A program made the translations under genes and the position numbers. Positions 6,068 to 10,622 of a stretch of 48,829 nucleotides of DNA are shown here, one piece after another (position 1 is the stretch's first letter; each line of letters opens with the position of its first letter). Origin of the DNA: Vitreoscilla sp. (GTDB taxonomy: Bacteria; Pseudomonadota; Gammaproteobacteria; Burkholderiales; Burkholderiaceae_C); contig JADMKA010000090.1 in NCBI GenBank assembly GCA_018780145.1, positions 1 to 48,829 of the forward strand. The letters are read 5' to 3'. Below the pieces are notes generated by a model. The model ran no database searches. It was not told the DNA's origin and saw nothing but the letters and a program-made list of their open reading frames with translations.

Positions 6068-6718
6068 TCAGGCCAGCCGATGCCCCCGGTCGCGGCCGGT
6101 GGTCCCGACGCGCATGGCCTGCAGGGCCTGAATGTCACGCACCAGACGCGCGGGATCCGGGGGATCGGCCGTGTAGCGCTGCATGAGGCGCCCGTCCGAT
6201 CCCACGAGCCAGACGGCCGTGTTGTGAAGGGCCGGCGACGCCGAACCATCGCCACCGAAGAGTCGCAGCCGGCGGCCGAGTTGCTCGACCTGAGCCACCG
6301 TCCCGCTGAGAAAGCGCCAACTCGGCAGATCCACACCATGGCGCCTGGCAAATGCCCTGAGCGTGGCGGGCGTGTCGCCGAGTGGGTCGACGGAGACGGA
6401 GACCTGCCGCAGCCCGTCTCGTGCCAGGGGGGTGAGGTCGCGGCGCACCTGCACCAGCACCTGGGTCTGCACCGGGCACACGGTCGAGCAGCCGGTGTAG
6501 ACGAAGTTGAACAGGCACACGTGGCCGCGCAGCGACGACCAGTCGAACGCGGCCCCGTCCTGATCCCGCCAGGGCGCGGGCTGGAAGTTCGTGTCGAAGC
6601 GGCTGTCGTCCAGCGCGGCGCGGGCCGAAAGACCCGCGCCGGCCAGCCCGCAGCCCAGCGCCAGGCGACACACCTGCCGCCGGGTCGGTCGGTTCGGAGG
6701 GGAGCGATGCGAGGTCAT
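6068..6718 (-). CDS. SCO1/SenC family copper chaperone
   Basis: A 216-residue thioredoxin-fold copper chaperone. The copper-binding CxxxC is in YTGCSTVCP (Cys77, Cys81), and the conserved distal histidine is His165 in LHNTAVWLV. The N-terminus has a twin arginine (TRRQVCRLALG) before a hydrophobic stretch ending SARA, so export may use Tat or Sec. Sco proteins deliver copper to the CuA site of cytochrome oxidase or to other exported copper enzymes. Here only one base separates this ATG from the stop of the upstream copper radical oxidase gene on the same strand, so that oxidase is the obvious candidate client (inference). An earlier in-frame start would lie inside the upstream gene. ATG at 6716-6718 was chosen for the operon spacing. 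Confidence 0.9.
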   Translation of the reverse strand: MTSHRSPPNRPTRRQVCRLALGCGLAGAGLSARAALDDSRFDTNFQPAPWRDQDGAAFDWSSLRGHVCLFNFVYTGCSTVCPVQTQVLVQVRRDLTPLARDGLRQVSVSVDPLGDTPATLRAFARRHGVDLPSWRFLSGTVAQVEQLGRRLRLFGGDGSASPALHNTAVWLVGSDGRLMQRYTADPPDPARLVRDIQALQAMRVGTTGRDRGHRLA

Positions 6719-6719
6719 G

Positions 6720-9700
6720 CTACGGGGCCTTCTGTTCGGCACCAGGGCCCGGCTCTTCACCGCCGATCTGCTGAAGATAGGCCACCAGGTTGGCCAGGTC
6801 GGCCTTGGCCACCTTCACGCCCCGGTGCGCCTTCACGGCGCTGGCCAGCGTCGATCTGCTGCCATCGTGCAGATAGGGCGCGCTCGCCCAGACGTCGCGC
6901 AGGGTTGGCGTGTCGATGCCGGGCAACGGCCCCCCCAGGCGCTGGCCACTGGTCGCCTTGATCGTCCCCACATCGTGCAGCGTGCTGGCGTCGGCGCTGT
7001 CGCTGAACGCGCCGCCCGCGTGGCAGCGGCCGCAGTTGGCCGTCTCGAAGACGGTTCGGCCGGCCAGCGCCGCATTGGTGAGCGAACCATCGGCCTGGCG
7101 GTAGGGGCTGTTGGCGAACTGGTCGAGGGAGGCCAGGTAGGCGGCCAGGGCGTCCAGATCGGGGCTGAGCCCGGCCTTGGTGTCGCCGAGCGGCTCGCTG
7201 CGGGTTCCCGCGTGGTACAGCTCATCAGCCAGCAGGCCCGTGCCGCCAGCCAGTTGGCGGATCTGCCGTTCGAAATCGTGCACCTCGTCGAAGTTGGCGC
7301 TCCAGTGCAGGAACCCATGGCCCGTGCCGGCCCGGCCCTTCAGGGCGATGGTGTTACGCAATCCCTCACCAGCGCCGGTGAGATCCCACACACGCCCGTC
7401 GTGGCCAGCGTCGGCATGGCAGGCCGCACAGCTGAGGTAGGCGTCGCGTGCGAGGCGCGGATCGCGCGCATCGTAGAAATGCTGCTTGCCCGCCAGCACG
7501 GTGGGGGGCAGCTTGTCGCTGGCCACGGTGCCGGTGGCGGTGGCCCCACCCACCTGCAGTTCGCCGTGCAACACCAGCGGTGACAGGTCCACCGTGCTGA
7601 CCGTTCGGTCCATGAAGTTCTGGGCATACAAGGACAAGCCGTCCGGCGAGACGTGCAGCCCCTGCGGTGCGCGGCCGACGTCGATGCGCATCAGCTCGCG
7701 CCCTCCGATGGCGTCGACCACGGCCACCTGGCGGCTGGTTTCGAGGGCGACGAAGAGGTAGGCCCCGGAGGGGTGGTGGATGGCCGCGCTGGCCATGCCG
7801 GCGTTGTCCAGATCCACCCGCCGCGGGTGGTCCTCCGCCCAGGTCTGCAGATCGACCCGGGAGCCGATCGCGCGAACCGTGTTCTGGAAGTTCAGGTCCT
7901 GGCCGTTGCGCAGCACGCCCCGGGTGATGTTGTCCTGCTTGGACGGGATCCAGGCGCTCAACCCGTCCGGCGAGACCGCCGGCGCGCCCAGGTAGTTGGG
8001 CAGGCCGCTGCCCTGGATCTCGGTGTCCGTCTTGTCGCTGTGCCTGAGCAGCACGGTGCGCTGGACCCGCCAGGCGGCGGTGTCCACCACCAGCACTTCA
8101 CCGCCGCCCACGGCGGTGTTCACCGTGCCGGTGGACTCGCCGGGCAGCGGGGGCGTGATGAAGCGGCTGGCCAGCAGCGTGGCATCGTCACCACTCAGCG
8201 CCACGTGGCGCACGTGAAGGCCGACGCGCAAGGTACCGCGCTTGGCGCCGTTGAAGGCATCCAGCTTCAGGATCTGACCGGACGCCTCCAGCGCCACATA
8301 GGCAAGGCCGTTGCCGCCGAAGACGAGGCCATGTGGCTGCGAGGCCCTCGGCAACGCAATGGTCTGGACCACGCTCCATGTCGAAGGCGCGATCACGCTG
8401 ATCGTGGCGCTGTCCTTGTTGGCCACCCACACGCGGCCATCGGGCGCCAGGGCGACGCTGCGCGGCTGGTCTCCGACGTTGATCTCGGCCAAGCGGTCGC
8501 GTGTGGCCGAATCGATGACCGAGACCGAATCGTTGTCGGGGTTGACCACCCAGAGGCGTGGCGCCAGGTCCGACCGGGGTTCCCAGGCCAGCGGAGACGA
8601 CATCGCCGGCCGGTGCGCGGTGGGCGCATTGACGATGGCCTGCACGATGCTGCGCCGGGCCATGGCGCCGTCGGCCCCCCGGGCGGTGATGGTCACCGAG
8701 TACACCCCGGGCGCCGAATAGGTGTGGGTCGCGGTCGGCGACGGGCTGAAAGGCGTTTCGGCCGTGCCATCGCCGAAGTTCCAGCTGTAGCTGGCGCCCT
8801 CGGCTGCCGGCACCCCCAGCTGAACCTGGGCACCAACCTGTGCGACAGGGGCATCGAGTGTGCCGCTCAGATCCGGTGGGAGGTAGGGGGGTGGGTCGCC
8901 CGGGGGCGGGCTCATCCCCTGGCCCAGGGCGACGATGGTCCCACGCGACGGGACGCCTTGCGCGTTGACCGCCACCAGCTGGTAGTAGCCGGGCGGGGCG
9001 GTGGCGCTGTCCGGCAGCACCGCCGTGACGCGAAACCCGTCCTGGGAGGCGACCAGTGGCACCCGGCGTTGACCCGGGTTGAACGAATGCGTCCCGTTGC
9101 CGACGCCCAGCAGCACGAGCTGCGCCACCGGATCGTTGGAGTTCATGTCGATCCGGAGCGTGCCGCCGTGGGCCTGCGACAGCCCGTTGATGCCCGACAG
9201 CACCGGCCGGTCCGCCAACGCCGCGACCCCATTGACCTCCCGAAACAGGTTGGGCGGGTAGTAGATTTCTGCATTCAGGTTGGTGACCGGGCCGGGTGCG
9301 CCACCACCGGTCGACAACACGGCGCCGTTGGGCAGCAGCACGGTGAAGGAGTGGTACCCGCGGTAGATGGCGGCGTTGGCACCGATCGTCCATTGGCCGG
9401 TTTGCGGGTCCCAGATCTCGGCCGCGTAGACCGCGTTGGCGCCGTTGCTGTTGCCTTGGGTGGTGCCGCCGGTGACCACCACCTTGCCATCCGCCAGGAC
9501 CACGGCGTTGGGGTAGCGCCTGGGGTAGCCCATGGCCGGTTGCTCGGTCAACACGGGAGCGCCGCCTGAGATGTCGACCACCGTGGCCTGGTTGCTCGAC
9601 AACATGCCGTCACCGTTGAAGCTGCCGTTGCCGCCCGCCACCAGGATCTTGCCGGGGGCATACATCACGGCCGTGTTGGTGGCCCCCACGTTCGGGCGCG

Positions 9701-10622
9701 TGACGTTGCTGGGTGGCGTCTTGAAGGCCCCGGCCACGCTGAGGCTGCCGTTGCCCGCCGGATCCAGGTACCACATGCGTTCGGCCGAGATTCCGAACAC
9801 GCGGCCATCGGGGGCCACCCAGGCGCGTGGATACGAGGTGCGAAGGTAGTCCGGGCCGAAAGCGTCCCGGCTGGCCGCACCGAACAGAGACCGCCACCCC
9901 GCGCTGTCGAGCACCTCGGGCGTCATCGACGGCAGGCCTTGCGCGATGGCCTGCTCGGGGTTCCCCTGCATGCCTTCGCTGTAGGGCACCATGCCACCCA
10001 GGATGAGCGGCCGCCCATCCGGCAGCGTGACCAGCGTGGAGTACCAGCGCTGGTCGGCGGTGTTCTGGCTCGACGTTTCCATGGTGTTGGTCGACGGCGT
10101 GAACAGGCTGCTCGTCACGCTGCCATTGCCACCACTCATCATCAGACGCCCGTCGCTGAGGTAGGTCGAGGTACCGCAGAAGCTGTCCTGTTGCTGAGGA
10201 CGGTAGGTGGTCACGTGGCTGGCGCCCGCGAAGCCTTCCGAGGGTGTCCACAGATCGAGGTAGCGGCCGTTCTGGCCGGCGCCGGAGAGGTCGCTGCCGT
10301 AGGTCAGCACACGCCCATCCGGGAGAACGACCGCGTGCAGGCCGTTGATCGGCCAGGCCTGAACCGACGACCACATGCCATTGCGGTCGGCATCCGCGGG
10401 GATGGCCAGGCCCGCCAGCAGCGGGTCGGCCACCGTCGGGATGGCGACCCAGGTGTCGTCGTCGGCTGCTGCCGTGGTGGCGTGGCGCCGCGCCCCGCCC
10501 TGGTCGGCCACGGTGGCGTCGCCGGATGACTGCCCGCCCCCGCAGGCGGCCAGCGTCACACTGGCCAGCAGGGCGACCATGCACCGCAGTGAACGTGGGG
10601 TTGAAGGCGAATCGTGTCGCAC
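6720..10622 (-). CDS. Lipoprotein fusion: galactose-oxidase-like copper radical oxidase, PKD, YVTN beta-propeller and di-heme cytochrome c peroxidase-like domain
   Basis: A 1300-residue exported protein. GTG start (10620-10622) behind TGAGGACAGGCC; lipobox LAAC puts the lipidated Cys at 27. Kelch-type galactose oxidase/glyoxal oxidase domain at about 80-570: by alignment to Fusarium galactose oxidase the cross-linked Cys228-Tyr272 pair is Cys149 (DSFCGTS) and Tyr194 (RWYST), and the copper ligands Tyr495, His496 and His581 are Tyr423-His424 (RGYHSF) and His512 (NGTHSFNPGQRR). All are kept, so it should be an active radical copper enzyme making H2O2 while oxidising an alcohol or aldehyde. A PKD domain (about 585-665, WNFGDGT) and a YVTN propeller (about 690-1015, VSVIDSATRDR) follow. 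The C-terminal domain has two heme-c motifs, CAACH (1065-1069) and CGRCH (1197-1201), plus APYLHDGS, as in MauG/cytochrome c peroxidases. It heads an operon with sco. The physiological substrate is unknown. Confidence 0.9.
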   Translation of the reverse strand: MRHDSPSTPRSLRCMVALLASVTLAACGGGQSSGDATVADQGGARRHATTAAADDDTWVAIPTVADPLLAGLAIPADADRNGMWSSVQAWPINGLHAVVLPDGRVLTYGSDLSGAGQNGRYLDLWTPSEGFAGASHVTTYRPQQQDSFCGTSTYLSDGRLMMSGGNGSVTSSLFTPSTNTMETSSQNTADQRWYSTLVTLPDGRPLILGGMVPYSEGMQGNPEQAIAQGLPSMTPEVLDSAGWRSLFGAASRDAFGPDYLRTSYPRAWVAPDGRVFGISAERMWYLDPAGNGSLSVAGAFKTPPSNVTRPNVGATNTAVMYAPGKILVAGGNGSFNGDGMLSSNQATVVDISGGAPVLTEQPAMGYPRRYPNAVVLADGKVVVTGGTTQGNSNGANAVYAAEIWDPQTGQWTIGANAAIYRGYHSFTVLLPNGAVLSTGGGAPGPVTNLNAEIYYPPNLFREVNGVAALADRPVLSGINGLSQAHGGTLRIDMNSNDPVAQLVLLGVGNGTHSFNPGQRRVPLVASQDGFRVTAVLPDSATAPPGYYQLVAVNAQGVPSRGTIVALGQGMSPPPGDPPPYLPPDLSGTLDAPVAQVGAQVQLGVPAAEGASYSWNFGDGTAETPFSPSPTATHTYSAPGVYSVTITARGADGAMARRSIVQAIVNAPTAHRPAMSSPLAWEPRSDLAPRLWVVNPDNDSVSVIDSATRDRLAEINVGDQPRSVALAPDGRVWVANKDSATISVIAPSTWSVVQTIALPRASQPHGLVFGGNGLAYVALEASGQILKLDAFNGAKRGTLRVGLHVRHVALSGDDATLLASRFITPPLPGESTGTVNTAVGGGEVLVVDTAAWRVQRTVLLRHSDKTDTEIQGSGLPNYLGAPAVSPDGLSAWIPSKQDNITRGVLRNGQDLNFQNTVRAIGSRVDLQTWAEDHPRRVDLDNAGMASAAIHHPSGAYLFVALETSRQVAVVDAIGGRELMRIDVGRAPQGLHVSPDGLSLYAQNFMDRTVSTVDLSPLVLHGELQVGGATATGTVASDKLPPTVLAGKQHFYDARDPRLARDAYLSCAACHADAGHDGRVWDLTGAGEGLRNTIALKGRAGTGHGFLHWSANFDEVHDFERQIRQLAGGTGLLADELYHAGTRSEPLGDTKAGLSPDLDALAAYLASLDQFANSPYRQADGSLTNAALAGRTVFETANCGRCHAGGAFSDSADASTLHDVGTIKATSGQRLGGPLPGIDTPTLRDVWASAPYLHDGSRSTLASAVKAHRGVKVAKADLANLVAYLQQIGGEEPGPGAEQKAP

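Follow-up and report, generated by a model that had tools for sequence, protein, structure and literature searches.

Background

The gene family described here makes it possible to ask, within one polypeptide, how copper radical oxidases (CROs) come to be activated and protected in nature. The family member from which we start lies on the minus strand, at 6720..10622, of a 48,829-nucleotide stretch of Vitreoscilla sp. DNA (contig JADMKA010000090.1; "the window" hereafter denotes this whole stretch). Judged from its sequence, the gene product is a CRO joined to a di-heme redox module in one chain, and the gene for an SCO1 copper chaperone adjoins it, which raises the question of what the two halves do for each other. 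Four observations have direct support, i.e. the architecture of the protein, the invariant copper and heme ligands, the linkage to SCO1, and the repeated pairing of the two modules. The reading that we favour, and to which we would give an even chance, is that of a CRO with a built-in heme partner, which would activate or mature the Cu-Tyr site and/or use the H2O2 made there. No report of such a fusion was found in the open-access literature searched, a scope outside which most subscription journals lie, and this agrees with the original prediction for this locus, whose author was aware of no characterised enzyme of the kind.

Architecture and copper site of the fusion protein

The gene is a single open frame of 1300 codons with a GTG start, a TAG stop and no internal stop; all its features given below are on the minus strand, which the original prediction had not stated. 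It begins with a lipoprotein signal peptide (10542..10622) with the lipobox LAAC and Cys27, which suggests a secreted, membrane-anchored lipoprotein. The putative CRO, an AA5/galactose-oxidase-like kelch propeller with an E-set domain, covers residues 78-565 (8928..10391; Pfam, PDB and Foldseek), and is followed by a PKD domain at residues 593-656 (8655..8846; PF00801, 1.8e-13), a YVTN propeller resembling the beta subunit of hydrazine synthase (HZS) at residues 689-1020 (7563..8558; Pfam, profile, Foldseek and NCBIfam matches), and a di-heme c domain of the superfamily that includes cytochrome c peroxidase (CCP), MauG and HZS gamma at residues 1032-1290 (6753..7529; sequence, profile and fold comparisons), after which 10 residues remain. 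The frame, the lipobox and the Pfam matches thus bear out the earlier description of one 1300-residue lipoprotein with oxidase, PKD, YVTN and heme parts. Above their curated Pfam cut-offs are GO-like_E_set (56.6 bits, cut-off 25), PKD (50.7, cut-off 23.5), Glyoxal_oxid_N (41.8, cut-off 37.5) and the YNCE propeller (31.9, cut-off 27.1). RoxA-like_Cyt-c (26.2, cut-off 26.7) and CCP_MauG (21.8, cut-off 25.6) fall slightly below theirs in this protein, and CCP_MauG is above its cut-off in all four relatives that were scanned for it (L037, L049, L030 and L032). A structure was predicted for residues 88-1287 from a 61-row alignment, with a mean pLDDT of 89 and a pTM of 0.64.

By sequence alignment, the copper site claimed in the original prediction is complete. 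In a search against solved structures, galactose oxidase 9g8h matched the oxidase part at 4e-39 with every copper or cofactor residue aligned. By the known ligand identities in galactose oxidase, Cys149 (10176..10178) and Tyr194 (10041..10043) would form the Tyr-Cys cofactor, with Tyr194 also a copper ligand, and Tyr423-His424 (9351..9356) and His512 (9087..9089) would be the remaining copper ligands. These five residues are invariant in 86/86 aligned CRO rows, which include three unfused oxidases and at least three genes present twice (L027/L049, L028/L070, L029/L051). Furthermore, the N-terminal half of the predicted model matches fungal alcohol oxidase 5c92 (TMt 0.85) and 1gof (E 4.1e-36) in Foldseek, so that the AA5 fold of kelch propeller and GO-like E-set is present both by Pfam and by fold match. 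The GlxA model of NCBIfam (NF052501) gives 133.3 bits, well under its cut-off of 800. By its aligned ligands and predicted fold, the oxidase half is a predicted AA5 copper radical oxidase.

The di-heme half and its nearest relatives

Both heme c motifs named in the original prediction, CAACH at residues 1065-1069 (heme 1; 7416..7430) and CGRCH at residues 1197-1201 (heme 2; 7020..7034), are present together with the segment TLRDVWASAPYLHDGS. The two Cys and the His of each motif are found in 87/87 rows. Among other conserved positions are His1106 and Trp1107 (7302..7307; each in 86/87 rows), Gln1120 (85/87) and His1266 (6825..6827; 86/87), the predicted sixth ligand of heme 2. Since both metal-ligand sets are invariant or nearly so (copper ligands 86/86, heme Cys and His 87/87, His1266 86/87), neither half appears to be decaying.

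The original prediction called this domain MauG/CcpA-type, of which the superfamily stands and the type does not. The two CXXCH motifs come in the CCP order, and a global hhalign profile alignment with 18 ordinary CCPs spans the whole domain (E 8.5e-42, positions 1-263). The CCP residues of known role are the pocket Trp, the Gln, the acid-base Glu and the Met ligand. According to the profile alignment, the first two are retained as Trp1107 and Gln1120, and their conservation suggests that heme 1 is catalytic; the loop that carries the acid-base Glu appears to be absent, and other acidic residues near the gap are invariant. At the place of the sixth ligand of heme 2, His1266 replaces the Met of CCP and Tyr294 of MauG, which would probably make heme 2 bis-His. 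The placement at the Tyr294 position is also supported by the Y294H mutant 3orv, which scores best against the domain among the MauG chains in the matches listed. A plain CCP or MauG label was therefore rejected, given the Glu loop in the alignment gap and the His at the Met/Tyr position.

On the other hand, several comparisons lead to hydrazine synthase. The first fold match of the propeller outside the CROs is HZS beta (5c2v_B, TMt 0.78; Foldseek on the predicted model). For the di-heme domain, HZS gamma (5c2v_C) comes first among solved structures by phmmer (1.4e-17, the next match being at 2.2e-10), narrowly first by profile (3.3e-21 vs 1.6e-20 for CCP 3o5c), and narrowly first by fold (2.2e-7 vs 3.7e-7 for CCP), the fold comparison having used a weaker separate model with a pLDDT of 75. 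With a 7-row profile of propeller plus heme domain, the top match is 1l0q, an S-layer protein with YVTN and PKD parts, and for the heme part CCP 3o5c stands slightly above HZS gamma; in two other members, L009 and L146, the MbnH model of NCBIfam slightly outscores HZS gamma. The NCBIfam HzsBC model (NF052342) matches the window's protein at 4.7e-22 with 77.9 bits, far below its cut-off of 1250. Section 8 of PMC12758564 gives His144 of HZS gamma, at the position of the CCP Trp, as a rule for hydrazine synthase, and the residue here is Trp1107. No gene for an HZS alpha subunit was found by Pfam in the nine window open reading frames around the fusion, the rest of the window and of the genome not having been searched. 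On these comparisons, HZS gamma is at least as near to the di-heme half as CcpA and MauG are.

Occurrence of the fusion in sequenced genomes

When 84,980 species were scanned with one genome each, 365 stretches were confirmed, and the best-scoring 80 of them were analysed as relatives; the fusion counts below cover these 80 and are hence biased by score. The oxidase and the propeller-heme part lie in one frame in 76/80 relatives, so that the check on domain architecture and taxonomic spread proposed with the original prediction gives a recurrent fusion, and the gene-splitting frameshift named there as its refutation finds no support. Of the other four, L073 has the two parts split over two overlapping frames, while in L100, L105 and L107 the contig ends too early. 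Counted among the 76 are L076, whose di-heme domain is broken across two frames, L095, in which only the last 39 oxidase residues are left, and L042, which ends within the di-heme domain. An artefact of chimerism, assembly or frameshift was rejected on these one-frame relatives and on a second fusion in the window's own genome (L009, C239:3138-8828), a 1896-residue frame with two C-terminal PA14 domains. In all, this genome carries two fusions and three unfused oxidases.

The records are mostly from Burkholderiales, and also from Methylophilaceae and Gammaproteobacteria, with five from Verrucomicrobiota and one each from Planctomycetota and Polyangiaceae; since metagenome-assembled genomes are frequent among them, an isolated phylum label could be mistaken. 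The distribution is patchy. With the window's own genome counted in each, fusions were found in 5/60 genomes of a family-level sample, and matches in 4/274 genomes at class level (1e-60) and in 3/398 at phylum level (1e-20). An order-level sample of 399 genomes, the own one included, gave 16 matches to the strict family (E under 1e-80), i.e. five CRO-fused, six behind LVIVD-type propellers, four alone and one cut by a contig end. A lipobox rule is positive in 52/76 fused frames, that of the window included; the rule missed some clear cases, and some relatives carry plain signal peptides. Relatives that were scanned contain F5/8, PA14, malectin, laminin-G and He_PIG modules, as would be expected of secreted proteins that bind surfaces or glycans. 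In L091 (7133-14839), a 2568-residue frame contains two equally scoring copies of the YVTN-di-heme module, as either a tandem duplication or an assembly repeat.

SCO1 and the gene neighbourhood

The best context evidence, overlooked in the original prediction, is the gene next to the fusion, which encodes a protein of the SCO1/SenC copper chaperone family with a twin-arginine signal and a CSTVCP motif (6068..6718, minus strand; Pfam 2.9e-18 for the frame from 6760). Its ATG lies downstream, one base past the TAG stop of the fusion, and the frame also offers a GTG at 6760; because of the one-base spacing the two genes are probably co-transcribed as one transcript. Upstream of the fusion, on the same strand, is a subtilase gene (Pfam).

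Across the 80 loci, a profile found SCO1 at 51, on the same strand in 50, with 21 upstream and 30 downstream of the fusion; at 18 loci it is lacking although no less than 1.2 kb is available on each side, and 11 loci are cut. Its position differs between the three groups of fused oxidases described below, upstream in 17 and downstream in 5 in group A, downstream in 17 and upstream in 3 in group C, and downstream in 4 and absent in 11 in group B. SCO1 is the sole neighbour family that stands out beside the fusion. There was no second conserved neighbour of this kind, since the clusters next in size, of 17 loci or fewer, were either antisense frames or general genes whose distance from the fusion is scattered. 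In the window's genome there are three SCO1 genes. None was seen within the 14 kb read around the own-genome paralogue L009, none at the three own-genome loci of unfused CROs, and none at 33 short loci with about 1.5 kb of flank (30 unfused oxidases, three of them own-genome, and 3 fused).

In two Verrucomicrobiota records, one gene directly before the fusion holds both an MbnP domain and a CCP_MauG domain (L101:1242-3062 and L103:4421-6127, the latter with its end in another frame), which is a further copper link. Separate CCP_MauG genes occur near the fusion in two group C loci (L153:9976-11460 and L092:14925-16457). At L077 an ankyrin-repeat gene (6310-6714) faces the fusion, and its frame family recurs downstream in four loci.

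Evolution of the pairing

The oxidase tree holds 81 fused and 29 unfused sequences, the unfused ones drawn from the window's order or family; this and the tree of the YVTN-di-heme module are quick trees with SH-aLRT support only. Left out were the duplicates L027, L028, L029 and L158, the odd tandem copy L091, and L031, which was dropped with the duplicates though not demonstrated to be one; L161, L169 and L172 form long branches of unsure placement. The fused oxidases fall into three groups, namely A with the window's protein (25 rows), B with the own-genome paralogue L009 (24 fused) and the galactose-oxidase-like C (32 fused). Unfused oxidases lie between the groups, and one lies inside each of B and C. 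The fused state changes five times on this tree, at least four of the changes being forced by starred branches; since unfused oxidases separate the three groups, the fusion was gained or lost more than once, and the tree does not distinguish gains from losses. In the module's own tree, the three CRO types need five changes against a possible minimum of two, which implies that N-terminal oxidases were swapped on the module.

The module also occurs by itself. In genus g277 it is a separate protein, and 4/4 genomes carry two or three separate CROs, compared with 0/2 for other genomes of the same family that lack the strict module; as one genus is concerned, this co-occurrence counts as one event. 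For four unfused modules (L145-L148) no CRO gene was found in the 17-kb stretches read, at least 6 kb on each side, the CROs being elsewhere in the genomes. In L149-L152, L154 and L155 the YVTN-di-heme module stands after an LVIVD-type propeller with Big_5 and PKD domains, which replace the copper oxidase; the LVIVD match of L155 is below the Pfam cut-off.

Proposed function

In the proposed scheme, the CRO half would oxidise an alcohol or an aldehyde and turn O2 into H2O2, with its copper supplied by SCO1 from the adjoining gene. The di-heme module would serve the copper site, most likely by one-electron oxidation of the resting Cu(II)-Tyr form, or of an immature one, so that the Tyr radical is made or restored, and/or by reducing the H2O2 formed at the copper site. 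An interaction between the two halves, and the way in which electrons flow, are both inferred. A built-in heme partner is favoured because the trio of oxidase, heme partner and Sco known from the precedents is here encoded by the fusion gene and its neighbour. The invariant ligands, the repeated pairing, the SCO1 linkage and the separate CROs of genus g277 likewise count for it. CROs lapse into inactive states, from which heme peroxidases can recover them. When copper is low in Streptomyces, maturation of GlxA is described as requiring both Sco and the heme peroxidase DtpA (PMC4736821, sections 3.2 and 3.3), and DtpA consumes the H2O2 that GlxA makes (PMC4736821). Fungal AlcOx is activated by a heme peroxidase, with a change in electron paramagnetic resonance supportive of one-electron oxidation and without need for efficient peroxidase activity (PMC9770985, section 7). 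Section 6 of the same paper states that the maximum in vitro activity of CROs has been reported to depend on a heme peroxidase, and GLOX needs reactivation (PMC10928124). That the fusion protein consumes its own peroxide, as the original prediction suggested it may, is plausible.

A number of points weigh against this reading. The CRO-to-propeller stretch varies from 122 to 585 residues across relatives, which speaks against a rigid electron path, and with a model pTM of 0.64 no fixed Cu-heme geometry emerges. In the one profile alignment made with the 18 CCPs, the acid-base Glu loop of CCP and MauG coincides with a 12-residue gap, so that peroxide chemistry at heme 1 is only putative. Among the 69 loci that have SCO1 or room for it, 18 lack it, and 11 of these are in group B, the group of the own-genome paralogue. 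The module behind LVIVD-type propellers comes from genomes of which 0/4 have a CRO, and it must therefore have roles without one. As regards the precedents, the part of PMC4736821 concerned with the pair reports no strong binding of GlxA to DtpA and no boost by DtpA over horseradish peroxidase, and one GLOX is described as active without any activator (PMC10928124).

Other explanations of the pairing were weighed. As a copper radical dehydrogenase, the protein would make no H2O2; the reduced copper site would hand its electrons to the hemes, and these would pass them on to an extracellular acceptor or the respiratory chain. Quinohemoprotein alcohol dehydrogenases are the model for such a passage to hemes, and two hemes could accept the two electrons of the substrate. 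The probable bis-His state of heme 2 via His1266 would also resemble heme gamma-II of HZS, an electron-transfer heme (PMC12607021). We nevertheless consider this explanation unlikely, as the variable stretch between the halves is awkward for direct transfer and the conserved Trp1107 and Gln1120 suggest a catalytic heme 1. Those two residues together with His1106, all nearly invariant around heme 1, argue as well against the hemes being an electron store or a scaffold without catalysis, which the missing Glu loop and the His at the Met/Tyr position would fit. In BthA, the Y463H variant, with a His at the same ligand place, lost the near-infrared bis-Fe(IV) feature and still reduced H2O2 (PMC6405878), so that a His ligand at heme 2 is compatible with peroxidase activity; the store or scaffold is in our judgement the least probable of the explanations.

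Ranked between these two is an independent enzyme with HZS-gamma-, RoxA- or MauG-like chemistry on a substrate of its own, where the fusion would do no more than bring a pair of secreted oxidoreductases to a common polymer or surface. The CRO-free genomes with LVIVD-type pairings fit this explanation, as do the F5/8, PA14, malectin and laminin-G modules of the relatives scanned; the repeated pairing of the module with different CRO groups speaks against it, and so does the SCO1 linkage, though SCO1 may serve the CRO alone. Whether as a self-activating oxidase or as a copper radical dehydrogenase, a Cu-Tyr radical site that exchanges electrons with a c-type di-heme module in one chain would make a new class of Cu/heme oxidoreductase, a proposal that we regard as tentative and somewhat doubtful.

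Comparison with known systems

The fusion arrangement occurs in many bacteria, and points to an enzyme that makes peroxide and has its heme partner built in. Oxidase and heme module are paired repeatedly, often with copper delivery adjacent, and the propeller and di-heme build of HZS beta and gamma is now also seen in copper-linked enzymes; for biocatalysis, the family would offer self-contained oxidases. With the AA5 oxidases (galactose oxidase, GLOX, AlcOx and GlxA) the fusion protein shares the five copper and cofactor ligands and the kelch propeller plus E-set fold, and it has the PKD, YVTN and di-heme domains in addition. With hydrazine synthase beta-gamma (HzsBC) it has in common the order of the parts, a YVTN propeller and after it a di-heme domain similar to gamma, but it differs in the Trp at the place of gamma His144 and in the fused CRO. 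Bacterial CCP, MauG and MbnH belong to the same di-heme superfamily and share the conserved Trp and Gln, whereas, compared with CCP and MauG, the domain here is without the Glu loop in the alignment and has His for Met or Tyr at heme 2. The fungal tandem Perox-AlcOx (PMC9770985) likewise combines a CRO with a heme partner, but as two genes and with a class II peroxidase. In the GlxA-DtpA-Sco system of Streptomyces (PMC4736821), a CRO, a heme partner and a Sco chaperone occur together as they do here; there they are separate proteins with a DyP-type peroxidase, while here the CRO and a c-type di-heme module form one chain.

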